Below, one piece after another: positions 19,559-60,389 of a DNA stretch of 64,000 nucleotides. The stretch lies in assembly GCF_017352095.1 (NCBI RefSeq), contig NZ_CP071463.1:744001-808000 (forward strand), in the 5' to 3' direction. A program made the translations under genes and the position numbers. Source of the DNA: Natrinema longum. GTDB lineage: Archaea > Halobacteriota > Halobacteria > Halobacteriales > Natrialbaceae. The notes beneath the pieces were generated by a model. The model ran no database searches. It was not told the DNA's origin and saw nothing but the letters and a program-made list of their open reading frames with translations. Numbering within the stretch: position 1 is the stretch's first letter; each line of letters opens with the position of its first letter.

Positions 19559-19891
19559 CTACGATGGGAAGATTGGATTGTGGAATAATAGATGTATCGA
19601 TGAGAACCTCAGTTTTGGGTTTAGGATACTATATTTCCGATATGGGAAACGGAGCCGACCGATCACGGCCAGCGATCCGATCGGGTTCGTCGCTGGTACC
19701 AGCGGTACGAGACGAACGAAGGCGACGGCTGGCCGTCTCTCGACTATCCGTTGTCACGCTTCCACCACCACCACCGTTCTCGAGTGGGCCGCCCGTCGTC
19801 GAACTCGCGTTCGACGCGACCGGCGACGTGACTCGACGGGTCGATCCGACGGGGCCCAAGGCGGGTGGCTCGGCGTCGAGCACGGGGGATT

Positions 19892-19953
19892 CAGACGGTC
19901 TCCCGTCCGTCAATGCCGGTGGGACCGGGACATCGGGACGGCAAACCGTCTCA
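19892..19953 (-). repeat. stop-anchored hairpin element, copy 1
   Basis: Read with the PRC-barrel gene, the element starts at that gene's TGA stop and runs TGAGACGGTTTGCCGTCCCG, ending GGGAGACCGTCTGA. It has inverted ends (GACGGT/ACCGTC) and inner arms CCGTCC/GGACGG. This copy lacks about 16 central bases compared with the copies near 44.4 and 50.9 kb and lies in the opposite polarity relative to its gene. The remaining bases up to 19548 hold no recognised gene. Confidence 0.75.
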
Positions 19954-20199
19954 GTCGCGTTTCGTCCGGTCGACGATCAGGTAATCGTCGATGTCGCTCA
20001 GACAGTGGGCGGGGACGACGATCTTTCCGTCGTCGTTCCTGTCGAACCCCCTGACGGTGTCGGCAGTTGGGGTAACGAGTACGTGTCGGAGCGCTCCGGT
20101 TTCGACGTTCATCGTCACGTTGTGAACCGTTCCGATCTCCGTTCCGTCTGCTCCCATCACTGGCGTCTCGGAGAGCGTGGAGGCGAGGACCGTTGTCAT
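19951..20199 (-). CDS. PRC-barrel domain protein
   Basis: An 82-residue single-domain PRC-barrel protein (MTTVLASTLSETPVMGADGT, GTVHNVTMNVETG, IVVPAHCLSDIDDYLIVDR). Small proteins of this type occur throughout haloarchaea, and one subgroup (CdpB) acts at the division site with SepF and FtsZ. This sequence alone does not place it in that subgroup. Its stop codon is the end of a dispersed hairpin element. Confidence 0.88.
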   Translation of the reverse strand: MTTVLASTLSETPVMGADGTEIGTVHNVTMNVETGALRHVLVTPTADTVRGFDRNDDGKIVVPAHCLSDIDDYLIVDRTKRD

Positions 20200-38512: not shown

Positions 38513-38834
38513 AGCGGGTTGTAGCACCTCCTTTCATAGTATATATATCAATATTGCGTACTACAAGCAGCGACGTATAGGGTAATGAAAGTTTTCACTC
38601 ACTGAGGGCATCGCCTTAATACCGGCTGTCGCCTGATATTAGGTCACACGGTTCCTGCCGTCCTCGAATCGCCCATCGGAACGAACGCAATAGGCCAAGA
38701 GGGAGCGAACTCGCGCCCATTGCCGGCACTGACGGTCACGGGGAGACGCTTGCTCCTCGCCGTCGGTTCTCCACAGCGATCCGATTCCGTCCCGGGAGCG
38801 CAACATCAATACGGCGACCGACGAAAAGACGGGT
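38513..38834. other. intergenic region with AT-rich promoter and a partial hairpin element
   Basis: It contains an AT-rich stretch (38532-38556, TATATATA and CAATATTG) that should drive the leftward solute-binding unit. Near 38721-38748, CCGGCACTGACGGTCACGG resembles half of the stop-anchored hairpin element, without its other arm. No gene recognised. Confidence 0.45.
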
Positions 38835-43696: not shown

Positions 43697-44371
43697 GTGG
43701 GCGTTGAAATAAAGGAAACGCGAGTGACCGACGCGGAGTTCGAAGAGATGCAAGGGTTCGTCTTCGAGTATCTCGCCGCCAGCGTCGAAAAGGAAGAGGA
43801 AGGGGGTCGCATGCGCTGGTACCCCTGGCACTCCGCGGAATACCGGCACAACCACATCCTCAACGTGGTCGACCTCGCGACGGAAATCGCCGAGAAGGAG
43901 GGTGCCGACGTCGACGTCACCCGCGTCGCCGCCCTCTTCCACGACGTCGCCAAACTCGAGACCGATCAGGAACTCCACGCCGAGGCCGGCGCTCGCGTCG
44001 CCCGCGAGTACCTCGAGTCCCGCGCCAACTACCCCGAATCGTTCATCCAACAGGTGTGTCGCGCCATCGAACACCACTCCTATCAGGGCGATCTGACCGA
44101 CGTCGCACTCGAGACGCAGTGTCTCATCGAAGCCGACATGCTCGACAAGGTCGGCGCGAACGGCACCGCACTGATGCTGTTGCGGATGGGGTATGAGTCA
44201 CGCACCCACATGGACTGCGACGAGATGATCGAGCGGGTCCTCGAACGCGGGTACGACGCCGCCTCGCGCGTCCAGAGCGATACCGCCGAGAGCATCGCCC
44301 ACCAGCGCCTGAAACGCGTCAAGTGGTTCCGCGAGTGGCTCGAGGACGAGATCGCCGCGCTCGGCGAGTAG
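43697..44371 (+). CDS. HD-domain protein (RNase Y/YfbR-like fold)
   Basis: A 224-residue HD phosphohydrolase. HNHILNVVDLATEIA, ALFHDVAKLE and AIEHHSYQGD give the metal His/Asp set, and LIEADMLDKVGANG a later motif. GTG start at 43697. The substrate is unknown; such HD proteins act on nucleotides or small phosphodiesters. It converges with the lysE-type gene, with a hairpin element between. Confidence 0.85.
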   Translation: MGVEIKETRVTDAEFEEMQGFVFEYLAASVEKEEEGGRMRWYPWHSAEYRHNHILNVVDLATEIAEKEGADVDVTRVAALFHDVAKLETDQELHAEAGARVAREYLESRANYPESFIQQVCRAIEHHSYQGDLTDVALETQCLIEADMLDKVGANGTALMLLRMGYESRTHMDCDEMIERVLERGYDAASRVQSDTAESIAHQRLKRVKWFREWLEDEIAALGE

Positions 44372-44407
44372 CCGCCGGACGCAGTCGGTCGTGCCATCGG
44401 TCCCGCT

Positions 44408-44489
44408 CGTACGGTTTGCCGTCCCGATTGACCGGAGAGACCGCAGGGCAGTCGGTCCCACCGGCACTGACGGACAGGAGACCGTATCA
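44408..44489 (-). repeat. stop-anchored hairpin element, copy 2
   Basis: Read with the LysE-type gene, it begins at that gene's stop: TGATACGGTCTCCTGTCCG, then CAGTGCCGGTGGGACCG, a variable centre, CCGGTCAATCGGGACGG and CAAACCGTA. Arms ACGGT/ACCGT, TGTCC-CCGG and their partners fold into an interrupted hairpin. It is nearly identical to the copy at 50.9 kb except for its centre. Confidence 0.8.
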
Positions 44490-45167
44490 GAGGAGTCTGA
44501 GTGTCCCCAACGCGAGAAAGAGGAGCCCAAAGCCGACGAGGACGACCGCGCTCAGTGTGGCAACGGCGGGCGCAAAGGCGTCGACACGTCGACCCGCCGC
44601 GTCCAGCGCGGCCGGATAGGTGACGATCCAGACGGCGATTCCGCCAAAGAAGCCGATCAGTAGCGCCGGCGAACCGGTCTGGACGACCAACGTCCCGGCG
44701 AGTGCCTGCCCCACGGCCGGTGCGTACGCGAGGACGTCGAGGGTTCCCGGCTCGAGGAGGCCGACGCCGACGGTGAGCCAGAAGCCGATCTGGTAGGGGT
44801 TAGTCAACGAGAGGACGAACGTCTTGCGAAACCCCGTCGCTGCGGCCCGGCTGGCGTCGGTAAACGACGTGGCAGCCCTCGCGTCGCCGATCGCACCGAC
44901 CGCGAAGTACAACATGAGACAGCCCCCGGCCAGATAGAGCGCGGGTCGAACGGCCGGAACGCGATCGAGGACGGCCACGATGCCGCCCAGCGCGAGGACG
45001 AAGAAGATCGCGTCCGCGAGCATCGCACCGAGCCCGGCCCGGAAGCCGGCCCGCCAGCCCCGGACGACGCTTTCCTCGGCGATGATCGCGTTCATCGGCC
45101 CCGGCGGGGCCGCGAGTGCGAGGCCGAAGATCACGCCAGCCAGTGCCGTGACGACGAGGGACGCCAT
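44487..45167 (-). CDS. LysE-family amino-acid exporter/translocator
   Basis: A 226-residue, six-helix membrane protein. GLALAAPPGPMNAIIAEES is the LysE/RhtB N-terminal signature, and FRKTFVLSLTNPYQIGFW the second conserved block. It exports amino acids or similar metabolites. ATG 45167; the open frame continues upstream but without coding character. The stop codon is the first codon of a dispersed hairpin element. Confidence 0.88.
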   Translation of the reverse strand: MASLVVTALAGVIFGLALAAPPGPMNAIIAEESVVRGWRAGFRAGLGAMLADAIFFVLALGGIVAVLDRVPAVRPALYLAGGCLMLYFAVGAIGDARAATSFTDASRAAATGFRKTFVLSLTNPYQIGFWLTVGVGLLEPGTLDVLAYAPAVGQALAGTLVVQTGSPALLIGFFGGIAVWIVTYPAALDAAGRRVDAFAPAVATLSAVVLVGFGLLFLALGTLRLL

Positions 45168-45325
45168 GGGTCTCGTCTCGGCACCGAAGTGTGAAAAACG
45201 CAGCGAACTGCCCCGAGAACGCCAGTAGGGGAGGAAATATCGTCGCGTCGCCGCTCGTGAGAGCGCTCTCGAAAGACCGGGCCAGCGCCTCGCCGTCCGA
45301 AAACTGGTTCGTGGAGCGGCGTGTC

Positions 45326-45964
45326 TCAGCGAGACGTGCTGTCCGAGTCGGCGACGGACTCGTTCGGATACGACTGCCGACCACCGCTCGAGCGTCGCGC
45401 GACGAGCGTCGCGACGGCGATCGTCTCGTCGGCGTCGCCCGCGATCGGCCGCCGTCGTTCCTCGTAGGAGAGGATCGTCAGGTCGAGACAGGCCCGCAGC
45501 AGGTCGTTCGATCGATACCGGTACCGATCGCTCGAGGGGCCGGCGACGGGGTCGCTCGAACGCAGGTGGTGTTCGGAGAGCAAGACGCCGCCGGGGGCGA
45601 GCGCGTCCTTGAGATCGGGCAGCCACTCGAGGGCGGCGAAGAAGCTCACGGTGATCAGGTCGTAGCGCTGGCAGCCGGGATCGAAATCGGCCACGTCCGC
45701 ACGGATCCAGTTCACGTCGACGCTCCGGTCGGCGGCCCGATCGCGGGCACGCTCGAGTGCCACGTCGGACACGTCGACCGCGTCCACCTCGTACCCGTGT
45801 TCGGCGAGGAAGACGGCGTTTCGGCCGGTTCCCGTCGCGACGTCGAGCGCGCGACCGTCCGGAAGCGTCGACAGTCGGCCCTCGAGTTCCGGAACGGGAT
45901 CGTCGGGAAATTCGGCGGTAGGCCCTTCGTATCGCTCGTTCCACCGGTCGCGTGGGTCGGTCAT
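45326..45964 (-). CDS. class I SAM methyltransferase (TehB-like)
   Basis: A 212-residue methyltransferase. The start DPRDRWNERYEGP, motif I LDVATGTGRNAVFL, motif II DAVDVSD and motif IV YDLITVSFFAALEW fit the TehB/thiopurine-type group. The substrate is unknown. ATG 45964 (MTDPRD); an in-frame start at 45976 is possible. Its C-terminal 20 residues are Ser/Asp-rich. Confidence 0.85.
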   Translation of the reverse strand: MTDPRDRWNERYEGPTAEFPDDPVPELEGRLSTLPDGRALDVATGTGRNAVFLAEHGYEVDAVDVSDVALERARDRAADRSVDVNWIRADVADFDPGCQRYDLITVSFFAALEWLPDLKDALAPGGVLLSEHHLRSSDPVAGPSSDRYRYRSNDLLRACLDLTILSYEERRRPIAGDADETIAVATLVARRSSGGRQSYPNESVADSDSTSR

Positions 45965-46191
45965 GGGTCCACACACGGCCGAGATCGGTTTAGTTCACCT
46001 GGCTCGAGACGGCCCAGCGACCCCCGTTGGGTTCGCGCGCCGATCGACTCGCGTCCAGCGAGACGCCGTCGAGGCGCTCGCCGTCGTCGGTTCGGCCGCG
46101 TGCCTCGGCACACTGCCGTGGTCTCGCTACTCGCAACTGCCCGCCGTCTTCTCCGAGAAAGGGTTCAAACCGTCAAAACGCAGGTCCGAAC

Positions 46192-48723
46192 CTACGCCTT
46201 CGCCTGCCAACTTCGAATGCGATCGGCGCTGACGCCCTCGACGTCGTCCGCGACCGCGTCGGGATCCGCCTCGGTCAGATCCTCGAGGTCCTCGATCCCC
46301 GCGTCGGCGAGTTTTTCGACGGTCTTCGCGCCGACGCCGTCCAGCGCCTCGAGGTCGGAGCCCGACTCGCTCTCGCGGGCCTGGAACTCCTGGTAGTTAC
46401 AGATCGGACAGCCCAGTTCCCAGGGCTCGTCGCCGCTGTGGACGACGAGTTCGGGCAGGTCGTGTTCCTCACAGTGCTCGTCGGTGACCTCGATCTCGCC
46501 GCGGCGGGGCAGGGGCAGCGAGTACTCGCAGTCGGGGTAGCGCGTACAGCCGACGAGTCGCGACCCGCTCTGGAGCGTTTTGACCGCCAGTTCGCCGCCG
46601 TGCTCGTCGCCACACTCCGGACATGTACCCAGCACCGGCCCCTCACCGGCATCCTCGGCCTTACAGAGCGGGCAGCCGTGGACGAACGTCTGTCGGCCCG
46701 CGAGCATCTTGACCTCGTTCAGGCCGTGTTCCTCGCACTCTTCCTCGAGAATGAGCGGTTTGCCGGTCGATGGCAGCGGCAGCGTGTTCTCGCAGTCGGG
46801 ATAGCCGTCGCAGCCGATGAAGTAGGAGCCGTGGCGGCTCCGCCGGACGAGCAGGTCCTCGCCACACTCGGGACAGGGGCCGAGTCGCTTGTCGTCTTTC
46901 AGCGACTTCCGGAGGTGATCGCCGATCTCCTCGCGGGAGTCCGCGAGGTTCTCGAAGATCTCCTCGAGCATCTCGCGCGATTCGTCGGTCACGTCGTCGA
47001 GCGTCGCCTCGCCGTTCGCGATGGCGTCCATGTCGGCCTCGAGTTGGGCGGTCATCTCCTCGCTGACGACGCGGTCGGCGTAGTTCTCGGCCGCGTCGAC
47101 GACGGCCATCGCGAGTTTGGTCGGGCGCGGCGGATCGCTCTCGATGTAGCCCCGATCGTAGAGCTTCTCCAACGTGTTGTGGCGGGTCGACTTCGTCCCG
47201 ATCCCCATCTCCTCCATGGTCTCGATGAGCCGCGACTGGCCGTAGCGACGGGGCGGCTGGGTCTGTTTGGCCTCGAGTTCGACGTCGGAGAGCGCCAGTT
47301 CCTCGCCCTCGTCGACGTCGGGGACGTAGTTCTCGGTCGTGGAGAAGTACGGGTAGACGTCGTGGTAGCCGGGCTCGACGAGGCGCTTGCCGTTTGCCTT
47401 GAGCCGGTAGTCGTCGACCTCGGCGACGACCTTGAGGTGTTCCCAGATCGCAGCCTCGGCGACGGTCGCGTAGAACCGCCGGACGACGAGTTCGAAGACC
47501 TCCCACTCGTCGTCGCCCACGTCGCCGCGGCTCGGGATCTCGCCCGTCGGGTGAATGGGTGGGTGGTCGGTCGTCTCCTCGTCGCCCTCCGTCGGAACGA
47601 TCTCGTCGGCCTCGAGCAGCGACTCGGCGGACTCACCGAGCGAGGAGTGGCCGACGAACTCGTCTAAGAGCTCCCCGGGGTCCAGGTCGTCGGGGTAGAC
47701 GGTGTTGTCGGTCCGCGGATACGTTATGTAGCCGGCGGTGTAGAGGTCCTCGGCGATCGACATCGCCCGCTTGGCCGAGTAGCCGATGGCACCGGCCGCG
47801 CGGATGAACTGGGTCGTGTTGAACGGCTCCGGCGGCGTGTCGGTGCGGGTCCGCCGATTGACGTCGACGACGGTCGCGGCGTCGCGGTCGGCGAGCGTCT
47901 CGTAGACCTCGTCCGCGGTGGCTTCCTCCCAGACGCGCTCGGCCTCGTTGTCGTCCTCGTCGCGGTAGAAGTACTGGGACTCGAAGGCGGTGTCGTCGTC
48001 TCGCGGTTCCTCACCGCTCGACGTCTCCGAGGCGCGTTGCGCCTCGCTCTTCGCGAGGTCCGCGAAGATCTCCCAGTAGTCCTCGGGATCGAAGGCTTCG
48101 ATCTCGCGCTCGCGGTCGACGATCAACTTCAGCGTCGGCGACTGCACCCGGCCGACGGAGATGAAGTCGTTGCCCAGCTGGCCTGCGGACAGTGAGAGAT
48201 AGCGAGTCAGCGCGGCCCCCCAGATGAGGTCGATGATCTGGCGGGCTTCGCCGGCAGCCGCGAGGTCGAAATCGAGCTCGTCGGGCTCGTCGAAGGCGTT
48301 CTGGACCTCGTTTTCCGTGATCGAAGAGAACCGAACCCGGCGAATGGGGACGTCGTCGTCGACGTTCCGAACGATGTCGTAGGCCTCCTTGCCGATCAGT
48401 TCCCCCTCGCGGTCGTAGTCGGTCGCGATCGTCACGCGCTGGGCGCGACGGGCCAACAGCCGTAACGTTGCGACGATGTTCTCCTTCGTCGCCGTCTTCT
48501 CGACGTCGGCGTCGATCAACTCGACGGGCTCGACGTCCCGCCAGTCGGAGTACTCCGAGGGGAAGTCCACGCCGACGACGTGCCCCGACAGCCCCACGCA
48601 TCGCTTGCCGCCCCACTCGTAGACGTTGACGCCGTTCTCGCGGCTCGAGTCGTAGGTGCCGCCGCTCAGGATGTCGGCGATCCGGCGGGCCGCGTTGTCC
48701 TTCTCCGTGATTATCAGTTCCAC
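46192..48723 (-). CDS. topA: DNA topoisomerase I (type IA)
   Basis: An 843-residue enzyme that relaxes negative supercoils. The Toprim domain shows LIITEKDNAARRIA and the acidic TDYDREGELIG. The active-site Tyr lies in AGYITYPRTDNT. Three C-terminal zinc ribbons follow (CPECGEDLL...YPDC, CEEHGLNEV...CPLC, CPECGDEHG...YPDC). A last helix-hairpin-helix tail is LEALDGVGAKTVEKLADAGI. The tail is a haloarchaeal add-on also seen in other DNA-binding proteins. An alternating purine-pyrimidine tract lies about 120 bases upstream of the start. Confidence 0.95.
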   Translation of the reverse strand: MELIITEKDNAARRIADILSGGTYDSSRENGVNVYEWGGKRCVGLSGHVVGVDFPSEYSDWRDVEPVELIDADVEKTATKENIVATLRLLARRAQRVTIATDYDREGELIGKEAYDIVRNVDDDVPIRRVRFSSITENEVQNAFDEPDELDFDLAAAGEARQIIDLIWGAALTRYLSLSAGQLGNDFISVGRVQSPTLKLIVDREREIEAFDPEDYWEIFADLAKSEAQRASETSSGEEPRDDDTAFESQYFYRDEDDNEAERVWEEATADEVYETLADRDAATVVDVNRRTRTDTPPEPFNTTQFIRAAGAIGYSAKRAMSIAEDLYTAGYITYPRTDNTVYPDDLDPGELLDEFVGHSSLGESAESLLEADEIVPTEGDEETTDHPPIHPTGEIPSRGDVGDDEWEVFELVVRRFYATVAEAAIWEHLKVVAEVDDYRLKANGKRLVEPGYHDVYPYFSTTENYVPDVDEGEELALSDVELEAKQTQPPRRYGQSRLIETMEEMGIGTKSTRHNTLEKLYDRGYIESDPPRPTKLAMAVVDAAENYADRVVSEEMTAQLEADMDAIANGEATLDDVTDESREMLEEIFENLADSREEIGDHLRKSLKDDKRLGPCPECGEDLLVRRSRHGSYFIGCDGYPDCENTLPLPSTGKPLILEEECEEHGLNEVKMLAGRQTFVHGCPLCKAEDAGEGPVLGTCPECGDEHGGELAVKTLQSGSRLVGCTRYPDCEYSLPLPRRGEIEVTDEHCEEHDLPELVVHSGDEPWELGCPICNYQEFQARESESGSDLEALDGVGAKTVEKLADAGIEDLEDLTEADPDAVADDVEGVSADRIRSWQAKA

Positions 48724-48843
48724 CGCGGCTCACCTCCGGGTCGGCCGTCCGGTCGCGGTCGTCGCGGACGAGTGTCGGTCATCGTCGCTCGGTACGACTG
48801 AAGATCTGATAACGCTTTCGCCGAAAACCCGGGTACTGCGCGG

Positions 48844-48877
48844 GTGTGCGTGCGTTCGTGCGTCGCGTGTGTGCGTG
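48844..48877. other. alternating purine-pyrimidine (RY) tract upstream of topA
   Basis: GTGTGCGTGCGT, then CGTGCGT and CGCGTGTGTGCGTG form 34 bases that alternate R and Y with only three breaks. Such GT/GC tracts can adopt left-handed DNA under negative supercoiling. It lies in the 294-base gap between topA (leftward) and the YgaP-like gene (rightward). GAGCGCGCGAGCG follows nearby. No gene is recognised in the gap. Confidence 0.6.
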
Positions 48878-49017
48878 AGGGATCTATGCACAGCACACCG
48901 GCAGTGGGGACGGCTCGCTCGAGCGCGCGAGCGAATACCATGTGGTGTGCTACCGGATGTGTTATTTCCGCTCGAGTCATAGAGGGAACCGCGTGAACTC
49001 ACGCGGAGAATACCAAA

Positions 49018-49284
49018 ATGGAACAAACTCTCAGTGGATTCGATCGCGCCTGGCGCTTGGTCGGTGGCGCGCTCGTCGCATTCGTCTTCATCGCCTCCTT
49101 CGTCGGCCTCGTCTCGATCGGGATCGCCCTGACTGTGGTTCTGATCGTCGCCGTTCCGGTGGCCCTCTCTACCGGTACCCGTCGGCGGCGCGTCGTCAAC
49201 CGGTTCCCGGGGATCGACACCTTCCGCGGCTTCCGGGCGGGGACAGGCCAGACAGACAACGTATCGATAGAACGACCGCGCTAA
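49018..49284 (+). CDS. YgaP-like (DUF2892) small membrane protein
   Basis: An 88-residue protein with two adjacent membrane helices. The N-terminal SGFDRAWRLVGGAL and C-terminal NRFPGIDTFRGFR match the DUF2892 pattern (G-x-D-R...R-L-V-x-G and G-I-D-T-x-R). The usual Cys before the second motif is missing. Function unknown. It is divergent from topA across the RY tract. Confidence 0.75.
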   Translation: MEQTLSGFDRAWRLVGGALVAFVFIASFVGLVSIGIALTVVLIVAVPVALSTGTRRRRVVNRFPGIDTFRGFRAGTGQTDNVSIERPR

Positions 49285-49426
49285 CCGACCGACTGGATCT
49301 TCGATCCCCGAGCGGCGCGGAATCATTGCCAGAAGCGGATGAGCATCGTCGGCTCCGGAACCGGCAACGGCTCCCGCGAGCCGATCCCTTTTGTTGTACC
49401 TGACTGAGATTCACACACGAGACTTC

Positions 49427-50926
49427 GTGGCAGCGACGGATCCCGAGCGCAAGCGCGTCGACATGACGACGGGGGCGATCTCCCCCAAGCTCCTCCGCCT
49501 CGCGTGGCCGCTGGTCCTGGGGAACCTCCTCCAGACCGTTTACAACCTCGCCGATATGTTCTGGGTCGGCCGCGTGAGCAGTGACGCCGTCGCCGCCGTC
49601 TCCCTGATGTTCCCCCTCTCCTGGCTGTTCGTCTCGACCGCGATGGGGATCACCGCCGCCACCATCGCGCTGGTCTCCCAGTACGTCGGTGCCGGCGACG
49701 ACCGGACGGCCGACCGCGTCGTCGCTCAGACGATCCTGCTCACGCTCGCCGTCTCGACGGTCCTCGCAGCGCTGGGATACGCCGTCCGGCGACCGCTGCT
49801 CGAGTTGATCGGCGCTCGAGGCCCGGTCTTCCTCGAAGCGCTCGCCTACATCGAAGTGATCTTCCTCGCCTTGCCCTTTACCTTCCTCTTCTTCGCCTTC
49901 CGAGCCTCGCTGCAGGGTGCGGGCGACACGAAGACGGCCATGTGGCTCGTCTTCGTCTCGGCGGGATTCAACGTCGTCTTCGATCCGTTTCTCGTCCTCG
50001 GCTGGGGCCCGTTCCCCGCGATGGGGACGCGGGGCGCGGCCATCGCGACGTTCCTCTCGCGCGGGCTCGCGACCGCCGCGGGGATCGCGATTCTCCTCGA
50101 TGGGGGATTCGGCGTTCGGCTGCGACTCGGGGATCTCACGCCCGATCGGACACTTCTCGCGCGACTGGTCCACATCGGCTACCCCGCCACGTTCGACGGC
50201 TGGGCCCGCAGCTTCGCGGCGGTGGCGATGGCCGGGTTCGTCGCCCGCTTCGGGGCCGCGCCCACCGCGGCGTACGGGATCGGTATCCGGCTGATGTCGG
50301 TAACATGGGCCGTCGCCGGGGCCGTCGGCCAGGCGACCGCGACCGGCGTCGGCCAGAACCTCGGCGCGGAGACGCCCGATCGGGCGGTCGCCGTCGCGCG
50401 AACGGCCACCGCGGCGACGATGGCGTTCATCTTCGTCGTCGCGGCCATCCTGTTCGCGTTTCCGGCGGCGGCTTTGCGACTCTTCGTCGCCGATCCCGCC
50501 GTCGTCACCGAGGGGATCGACTTCCTGCGAATCACCGCCCCCTTCTGGGCGCTTTTCGCCGGCGTGATGGTCATCCAGGGCGCGTTCCGCGGGGCCGGGA
50601 ACACCCGCGAGGCCATGATCCTCTCGATCCTCTCGCGGTGGGTCTTCCGGATCCCCCTCGTCGTCGTCCTCGCCTTTTCGTGGTCCGTGACGCTCCCCGG
50701 AATCGGCGTGACGGTCGCCGCCCTCGAGTGGGGCGTCGCGGGGATCTGGTGGGCGTTTGCCGTCGGCATGGTCGCGGCCTTCGTCGTGGCTGTCGCCTGG
50801 TTCCGGCTCGGAACGTGGGCCGAAGGCGTCATCGACGATAGCAGTACCGAGCCCCCCGGTGGTGGCGGGACTCGAGACGGGCCGGCTTCCGGCACCGAGA
50901 GCGAGACGGATTTCGTCGACGACTGA
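49427..50926 (+). CDS. MATE-family efflux transporter
   Basis: A 499-residue, 12-helix multidrug/toxin exporter, cation-coupled. LAWPLVLGNLLQTVYNLADM and FWVGRVSSDAVAAVSL form the first block, and FRASLQGAGDTKTAMW and GAFRGAGNTREAM the repeated loop motifs of both halves. GTG 49427 is taken; ATG 49463 (MTTGAISPKL) is the alternative and TTG 49391 less likely. The TGA stop is the start of a hairpin element. Confidence 0.92.
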   Translation: MAATDPERKRVDMTTGAISPKLLRLAWPLVLGNLLQTVYNLADMFWVGRVSSDAVAAVSLMFPLSWLFVSTAMGITAATIALVSQYVGAGDDRTADRVVAQTILLTLAVSTVLAALGYAVRRPLLELIGARGPVFLEALAYIEVIFLALPFTFLFFAFRASLQGAGDTKTAMWLVFVSAGFNVVFDPFLVLGWGPFPAMGTRGAAIATFLSRGLATAAGIAILLDGGFGVRLRLGDLTPDRTLLARLVHIGYPATFDGWARSFAAVAMAGFVARFGAAPTAAYGIGIRLMSVTWAVAGAVGQATATGVGQNLGAETPDRAVAVARTATAATMAFIFVVAAILFAFPAAALRLFVADPAVVTEGIDFLRITAPFWALFAGVMVIQGAFRGAGNTREAMILSILSRWVFRIPLVVVLAFSWSVTLPGIGVTVAALEWGVAGIWWAFAVGMVAAFVVAVAWFRLGTWAEGVIDDSSTEPPGGGGTRDGPASGTESETDFVDD

Positions 50927-51002
50927 GACGGTCTCCCGTCCGTCAGTGCCGGTGGGACCGTCCTGCAGTCTCACCGGTCAATCGGGACGGCAAACCGTAT
51001 GA
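50924..51002 (+). repeat. stop-anchored hairpin element, copy 3
   Basis: Starts with the MATE stop: TGAGACGGTCTCCCGTCCG, then TCAGTGCCGGTGGGACCG, centre TCCTGCAGTCT, CACCGGTCAATCGGGACGG and CAAACCGTATGA. Outer arms ACGGT/ACCGT, middle CCGTCC/GGACGG and inner CCGGTG/CACCGG pair. This is the best-preserved copy with the clearest hairpin. Confidence 0.8.
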
Positions 51003-51112
51003 ATCGTCGAGTCGGTCCTCGGACGGCCGAACCGCGGGTCTTCGACGACGACGCGTTCGTCGCCGAACGTATTCCTCCGCGAGAATCCCACGAAAGTTGA
51101 TTATATCTTCGA

Positions 51113-51138
51113 TAGTGGCTACGATAGACTTAACACTA
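51113..51138 (+). promoter_or_regulatory. promoter region of thi4 with short inverted repeat
   Basis: GACTTAAC (51127-51134) sits about 30 bases before the thi4 ATG and is a likely TATA box, giving a nearly leaderless transcript. TAGTG (51113-51117) and CACTA (51134-51138) bracket it as a 5-bp inverted repeat, a candidate site for the thiamine regulator found at 56.3 kb. No THI-box riboswitch is visible. Confidence 0.35.
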
Positions 51139-51160
51139 CTGAGTAATACCACCTAGTTGT

Positions 51161-52090
51161 ATGAGCGAATTCGAGCAGTTCAGCCAGGTCGGCGAAGCAG
51201 ACGTGACGCGTGCGATCGGACAGGAGTGGACCGAGGAGTTCATGGACTTCTCGGACTCGGACGTCATCATCGTCGGCGGGGGTCCTTCGGGGTTGACGGC
51301 CGCGAAGGAACTCTCCGAACGCGGCGTGAAGGTGATGGTCGTCGAGAAGAACAACTACCTCGGCGGCGGGTTCTGGCTCGGCGGCTTCCTGATGAACAAG
51401 GTCACGGTCCGGGATCCCGCCCAGCAGGTCCTCGACGAACTCGACGTCTCCTACAAGGAGTCCCAGGACAGCGAGGACCTCTACGTCGCCAACGGCCCCG
51501 AGGCCTGTTCCGGCCTCATCAAGGCCGCCTGTGACGCAGGCGCGAAGATGCAGAACATGACCGAGTTCACGGACATCGTCATCCGCGAGGACCACAAGGT
51601 GTCCGGTATCGTCATGAACTGGACCCCGGTCCACGCGCTGCCCCGGGAGATCACCTGCGTCGACCCGATCGCCGTCGAGGCCGATCTGGTCATCGACGCC
51701 ACCGGCCACGACGCGATGGCGGTCAAGAAACTCGACGAGCGGGGCGTCCTCGACGCACCCGGCATCGCCGACGCCGAGGAATCCGCGACGGGAATGGACC
51801 AGACCGACGCCGATACGTACGGCGCACCCGGCCACGACTCGCCCGGTCACGACTCGATGTGGGTCGGCAAGAGCGAGGACGCCGTCGTCGAGCACACCGG
51901 CCTCGTCCACGACGGCCTCGTCGCGACCGGGATGGCGACCGCGACGACCTACGGGCTCCCGCGGATGGGCCCGACCTTCGGTGCCATGCTCGTCTCGGGG
52001 AAACGCGCCGCGCAGGTCGCACTCGACGAACTCGAGGTCGACGCCGATCCCGTCGAGTTGACGTCGCGGGCCGCACCGGCCGACGACTGA
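51161..52090 (+). CDS. thi4: thiazole synthase Thi4 (ribulose-1,5-bisphosphate-type family, Cys form)
   Basis: A 309-residue FAD/NAD-fold enzyme forming adenosine diphosphate thiazole for thiamine. [15 protein letters not shown] binds the nucleotide, and [17 protein letters not shown] and [14 protein letters not shown] are family blocks. Cys166 in [10 protein letters not shown] sits where the sulphur-donating Cys of yeast Thi4 and Haloferax Thi4 lies; methanogen enzymes have His there. This suggests a single-turnover, self-sacrificing enzyme. An in-frame GHDSPGHDS repeat occurs in a loop near residue 228. Confidence 0.94.
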
Positions 52091-59810: not shown

Positions 59811-59891
59811 CTGACTCCTGCCCGTCAATGACGGCCCAACCGCAGGGCGGGTCGCGGGTGCGTCGGTTCGTCGGGACAGGGGACCGTCTCA
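59811..59891 (-). repeat. stop-anchored hairpin element, copy 4 (degenerate)
   Basis: Read with the carbonic anhydrase gene it starts at its stop: TGAGACGGTCCCCTGTCCCG. It shares GACC-GCCCTGCGGT in the centre and CCGTCA near the end with copy 2, but the second arm is diverged. It occupies the whole 96-base gap between two convergent genes. Confidence 0.6.
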
Positions 59892-60389
59892 GTCGATGCG
59901 GTCCGACGTCTCCGCGTGTTTTTTCGCGAGTTCGACGTAGCGATCGGCCGTCGCCTCGAGGGCCGGGTCGTCGATCTCGGTTTTCGGTTCCGCGGGCGTC
60001 CCCGCGACGAGCGTGGATGCCGGGACCTCGGTGCCTTCGGTGACGACGCTGCCGGCCGCGACGACCGCCCCCTCGCCGACGTGCGCGCCATCGAGGACCA
60101 CCGCGTTCATGCCGATCAGCGCGCGCTCGGCGACGGTGGCGTTGTGGACGATCGCGCTGTGACCGACCGTCGCGTGGGGCTCGAGTGTGGCCGTCTCGTG
60201 GAGGACGGCGTTGTCCTGGACGTTGGCTCCCTCGCCGACGACGATCCGGCCGTGATCGCCACGAAGGGTGGTGTTTGGCCAGACGCTCGCGTCGGCTTCG
60301 ACGACGACATCGCCGATGACGACCGCGGCGTCGTCGACGTACGCGGAGTCGGCAACCTGGGGTTCGGTTCCGTCGAACGATCGTAGCAT
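59889..60389 (-). CDS. gamma-class carbonic anhydrase-like protein
   Basis: A 166-residue left-handed beta-helix (hexapeptide) protein. Zinc His positions are visible as VLHETATL and VGHSAIVHN, and RGDHGRIVVGEGANVQDNA is the family core. It would hydrate CO2 or act as a related acyltransferase-like protein. ATG 60389 gives the standard start (MLRSFDGTEP). An ATG at 60428 overlaps the DUF3006 stop as ATGA and may be the real coupled start. Last gene of a three-gene minus unit. Confidence 0.87.
   Translation of the reverse strand: MLRSFDGTEPQVADSAYVDDAAVVIGDVVVEADASVWPNTTLRGDHGRIVVGEGANVQDNAVLHETATLEPHATVGHSAIVHNATVAERALIGMNAVVLDGAHVGEGAVVAAGSVVTEGTEVPASTLVAGTPAEPKTEIDDPALEATADRYVELAKKHAETSDRID

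Follow-up and report, generated by a model that had tools for sequence, protein, structure and literature searches.

A near-perfect 77-bp palindrome abuts the stop codon of a LysE gene in Natrinema longum, and its position raises the question of how such an element comes to lie exactly at the end of a gene, and whether the stop codon belongs to the element or to the gene. The locus is in the window, the whole stretch of 64,000 nucleotides analysed here, which corresponds to positions 744001–808000 of a genome of 3,588,874 bp in one contig. The preliminary description reported four copies in the window, each with a TGA that is the actual stop codon of the adjacent gene (PRC-barrel, LysE, MATE and gamma-CA). 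All four copies are present, and the stop coordinates match in every case. Genes were called by a codon-usage caller trained on the window, and these calls are computational. The features are as follows, in window coordinates.

19891–19893, no strand: distal duplication copy, TCA
19894–19950, − strand: element copy, 57 bp, with an internal deletion
19951–19953, − strand: TCA, the TGA stop codon of the PRC-barrel gene (19951–20199, − strand)
38722–38738, + strand: possible relic, a piece that matches the element's right arm, in a spacer and away from a stop codon
44407–44409, no strand: distal duplication copy; has decayed to TCG, whereas N. ejinorense retains TCA
44410–44486, + strand: the element copy under study, 77 bp
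44487–44489, − strand: TCA, the TGA stop codon of the LysE gene (44487–45167, − strand); gene-side duplication copy
50924–50926, + strand: TGA stop codon of the MATE gene (49391–50926, + strand); gene-side duplication copy
50927–50999, − strand: element copy, 73 bp, with a precise empty site in N. ejinorense
51000–51002, no strand: distal duplication copy, TGA
59815–59888, + strand: degenerate element copy that has lost its left end (intact in N. ejinorense)
59889–59891, − strand: TCA, the TGA stop codon of a hexapeptide-repeat gene of the gamma-CA type (59889–60389, − strand)

The palindrome reads KACGGTTTGCTGTCC...GGACAGGAGACCGTM, and the family consensus is K ACGGTTTGCTGTCCCGATGTCCCGGTGGGACCGCAGGGCGGTCCCGGTCCCACCGGCACTGACGGACAGGAGACCGT M. 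It is a short non-coding element with terminal inverted repeats and 24–26 paired positions, and many copies carry internal deletions. No credible Rfam match was found at the intact copies at 44.4 and 50.9 kb (window positions 44300–51200). A half-copy had also been suspected at 38721–38748. Its first part, 38722–38738, does match the right arm (no equivalent in 100 shuffles), and this match is a fragment only, with no tie to a stop codon. Half-copies at positions 202722, 153809 and 3044824 of the genome, on the other hand, also begin at a stop codon.

The family is far larger than the four copies in the window. A BLAST search of the genome with the 44.4-kb copy as query gives at least 40 matches, and a covariance model built from 40 copies gives at least 146, though many of these are a single copy hit on both strands. 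The model missed the fourth window copy; when that copy is included, the 3.59-Mb genome has at least 99 distinct copies. The terminal repeat pattern TSAKACGGTNTNCNGTCC matches 224 ends in this genome, compared to 5 for the reversed control.

A 3-bp direct repeat, TSA (TGA or TCA), borders the element on both sides. The repeat is exact in 66 of the 99 copies (35 TCA, 29 TGA, 1 TAA and 1 CGA), and where both flanks read TSA they are identical in 64 of 66 copies (p = 6e-17). The triplet is independent of the orientation of the element and therefore derives from the target. The genome of N. ejinorense JCM 13890, which is conspecific and 97% identical over the locus, contains the corresponding empty sites. 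Nine insertions of N. longum, six of them at stop codons, are matched there by a site with a single TSA. For the 50.9-kb copy, N. longum has ttcgtcgacgacTGA-element-TGAatcg, and the empty site in N. ejinorense is ttcgtcgacgacTGAaccg. There is also one reverse case, occupied in N. ejinorense and empty in N. longum. Both strains carry the 44.4-kb insertion, and in N. ejinorense its TCA/TCA duplication is intact. Elsewhere in the genus, LysE-type genes lack the element and terminate at, or close to, this position.

The 3-bp duplication and the precise empty sites identify a MITE-like mobile element. The earlier proposal that the element moves or is copied is thus borne out by occupied and empty alleles in a conspecific genome, with the element itself being non-autonomous. 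The companion proposal, that it brings its own stop codon, has to be abandoned: the triplet follows the strand of the gene, is repeated on both flanks and is already present in the empty sites. The stop codon is part of the target, and the duplication restores it.

For 80 of the 99 copies, the TSA triplet coincides exactly with the stop of a called gene. The gene-side triplet is a stop in all of 79 such copies (TGA in 75, TAA in 4), and the distal triplet has decayed in 28 (CGA in 16, TGG in 4, and others), as expected if selection acts on one copy of the duplication alone. TGA ends 75 of these 79 genes, compared to 227 of 447 other genes (p = 1.5e-15). The same position is seen elsewhere. In N. 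ejinorense it applies to 24 of 30 copies, and among the 29 best copies found in other genomes, which belong mostly to this genus, to 21. The gene-side classification relies on exact stop coordinates, which public annotation confirms for a few plasmid cases only: of the three plasmid regions inspected, those of N. thermotolerans and Natronorubrum bangense have a stop annotated exactly at the edge of the element, and in the third (Halomontanus rarus) the copy is away from an annotated stop.

The idea that the element targets gene ends is therefore upheld in its main part. Copies do not always abut stop codons, however, as 19 of the 99 have no called stop; these may include cases next to unrecognised small genes. 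Stop codons are strongly preferred, yet not obligatory. Seven copies are found in divergent (promoter) spacers, for example at genome positions 206712–206798, 2407658–2407744 and 1991218–1991303. Some of these have empty alleles in N. ejinorense, and they could alter promoters.

A bias of this kind could arise with no targeting at all, if insertion were random among TSA sites and only insertions at stop codons survived. None of the 99 copies lies inside a called gene, and a TGA stop is a self-healing target, as this explanation would have it. However, spacers contain several TSA sites on average, and among 78 copies in spacers that hold a TGA stop, 76 are at the stop, compared to 43.3 expected for a uniform choice among TSA sites (p about 1e-24). 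The excess is also found in convergent spacers, which have no promoter to break, with 33 of 33 copies at a stop and 25.3 expected. Moreover, the flanks carry a symmetric motif: the reconstructed targets form a mirror-symmetric 11-bp palindrome, about CGnCTSAGnCG. Insertion without any targeting is thus very improbable.

Haloarchaeal stop codons that follow GAC often resemble this motif. When the TSA sites are weighted by the motif, learned from the non-coding side only, the expectation in the same spacers rises to 61.6, compared to the 76 of 78 observed (p = 3e-12), and in convergent spacers to 29.8, compared to 33 of 33 (p = 8e-4). The motif, together with purifying selection that removes insertions which break genes, accounts for much of the stop bias, though not all of it. 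The residual excess could reflect a better motif, selection or a true preference for gene ends.

This excess is what would be expected if stops were recognised by something beyond the DNA motif, with integration coupled to gene ends, for example through convergent transcription or the termination of transcription or translation. We consider such coupling unlikely. The weighting treats motif positions as independent and may understate the strength of the motif, 19 copies are away from called stops, and residual selection is inseparable from a coupling effect. A related and rather doubtful idea is that the mobilising machinery reads gene ends as such, beyond CGnCTSAGnCG. The family, which has persisted across genera of the Natrialbaceae with no autonomous partner detected, would then follow a dedicated 'safe-site' strategy in which the stop is re-created by the 3-bp duplication.

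The observations are very probably explained by a non-autonomous, MITE-like element of about 77 bp that is mobilised in trans by a predicted transposase, most likely of the DDE type. This enzyme would cut a palindromic target of about CGnC-TSA-GnCG with a 3-bp stagger, which would leave the TSA duplicated on either side of the insertion. TGA stops in the N. longum genome often lie in a ...CGAC TGA G.CG context and would be suitable targets. An insertion there would do no damage, since after the duplication the gene still ends in an intact stop at its original position, and insertions into coding sequences would be lost.

Some of the evidence counts against this model. No autonomous partner was found in the sets searched (see below), and 19 of 99 copies are off called stops. 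The stems also covary between subfamilies over nearly their full length, with 15 of 26 pairs changed on both sides, which exceeds the need of a simple terminal-repeat element. Covariation of this kind means that the palindrome either matters or undergoes continual repair; RNA, cruciform DNA and strand-switch correction all fit. In one example, the arms change from CTGTCC/GGACAG to CTGTAA/TTACAG.

The covariation has also to be considered with respect to function, as the element was suggested to be a mobile transcription terminator or 3'-UTR hairpin, selected at gene ends for its effect on the formation or stability of mRNA 3' ends. The location of 80 of 99 copies at stop codons would suit this role. 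So would the predicted RNA fold, with an energy of −51.3 kcal/mol compared to a mean of −32.5 kcal/mol for shuffled sequences (z = −5.9), and the covarying stem pairs, though strand-switch repair of palindromes would be expected to produce covariation as well. The hairpin ends in ACCGT-M-TSA, however, and no T-run follows it. The orientation of the element relative to the gene shows no significant bias (44 against 35, p = 0.37), although in the case of a palindrome this argument is a weak one. Orthologous copies in N. longum and N. ejinorense are 92% identical and their flanks 95%, so the copies diverge at least as fast as the flanks, and nothing in the sequences points to conservation of the element once it has inserted. 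The many internally deleted copies, and the lack of any detectable copy in some members of the genus, also argue against such a role. A terminator or 3'-UTR function is unsupported by the sequence data, and we regard it as quite unlikely. For the 44.4-kb copy, about 10% of the element's positions differ between the two genomes, despite identity over the 200 bp to its left.

For the MITE-like model, a source of the transposase was sought in related genomes. In five genomes, with 30 transposase loci, the DDE_Tnp_1 (PF01609) insertion sequences that could be resolved have ends unlike those of the element, and PF13340 has no match in the genus. Of the five, one relative is far richer in PF01609 than the rest, with 79 matches. 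The searches revealed no longer element sharing these ends: the terminal repeat matches in 16 low-copy relatives, including one from a divergent genus, are all short elements, several of them exactly at stop codons, and a loose scan for long pairs of terminal repeats returned only noise. The element is present in four records of the plasmid collection and in no record of the phage collection.

The element has the features by which a MITE can be recognised, parent aside. It is short and non-coding with terminal inverted repeats, it duplicates its target site, and it is mobile with many dispersed copies. Bacterial and archaeal MITEs, such as RUP of Streptococcus pneumoniae and Correia/NEMIS of Neisseria, are short, mostly intergenic sequences with a foldback structure, and the classic bacterial ones are A+T-rich and duplicate TA (PMC2229807). 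The element shares with them the inverted repeats, the foldback structure, the target-site duplication and the high copy number. In contrast to the classic bacterial MITEs, it duplicates TSA, is G+C-rich, is located at stop codons and has no known parent insertion sequence.

REP/BIME palindromes, which are mobilised by RAYT transposases, are also short and extragenic, with about 100 copies per genome. A 3-bp duplication and precise empty sites are not expected from a single-strand Y1 mechanism, and both are found for the Natrinema element, which thus differs from the REP/RAYT systems. Mobilisation of the Y1/IS200 type was rejected as the main mechanism, as the triplet is duplicated and its G/C position varies in concert on both sides. 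A 3-bp duplication of the form TNA in a palindromic target recalls the enzymes of the IS5 superfamily. IS5-superfamily and PIF-Harbinger transposons produce 3-bp TNA or TWA duplications inside a palindromic target. This likeness is a lead only; no matching transposase was found among the PF01609 elements of the five genomes or with PF13340.

Among haloarchaeal elements, SMR-A and SMR-B of Haloquadratum walsbyi are about 80–110 bp long and non-coding, with terminal inverted repeats and tens of copies (PMC3119063). The ends of SMRs are unrelated to known transposons and their target preference is strong; they are reported to make no target duplications and to target other mobile elements (PMC3119063). 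The Natrinema element is similar in size, terminal repeats, absence of coding capacity, strong target preference and type of host. However, it duplicates TSA and targets the stops of ordinary genes, which sets it apart from the SMRs as described. No description of such stop-codon targeting was found in a search of literature mostly from outside the subscription journals.

The family is a clean case of a mobile element that can insert at a stop codon without harm to the protein, owing to the combination of its target choice and duplication length. The finding of safe sites by selfish DNA in compact genomes becomes directly testable. In addition, about 80 genes gain a predictable 3' hairpin, and their occupied and empty alleles can be compared.

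The named carriers are all Natrialbaceae (Natrinema, Natrialba, Natronorubrum, Natronolimnohabitans and Natrarchaeobius). Matches outside this family are weak, and a single match in a Bacteroidales contig is within the estimated number of chance matches for a pattern of this short length. Another genus of the Natrialbaceae has a diverged version, TACGGTTTGCTGTAACTTTT..., of which several copies begin at called stops.
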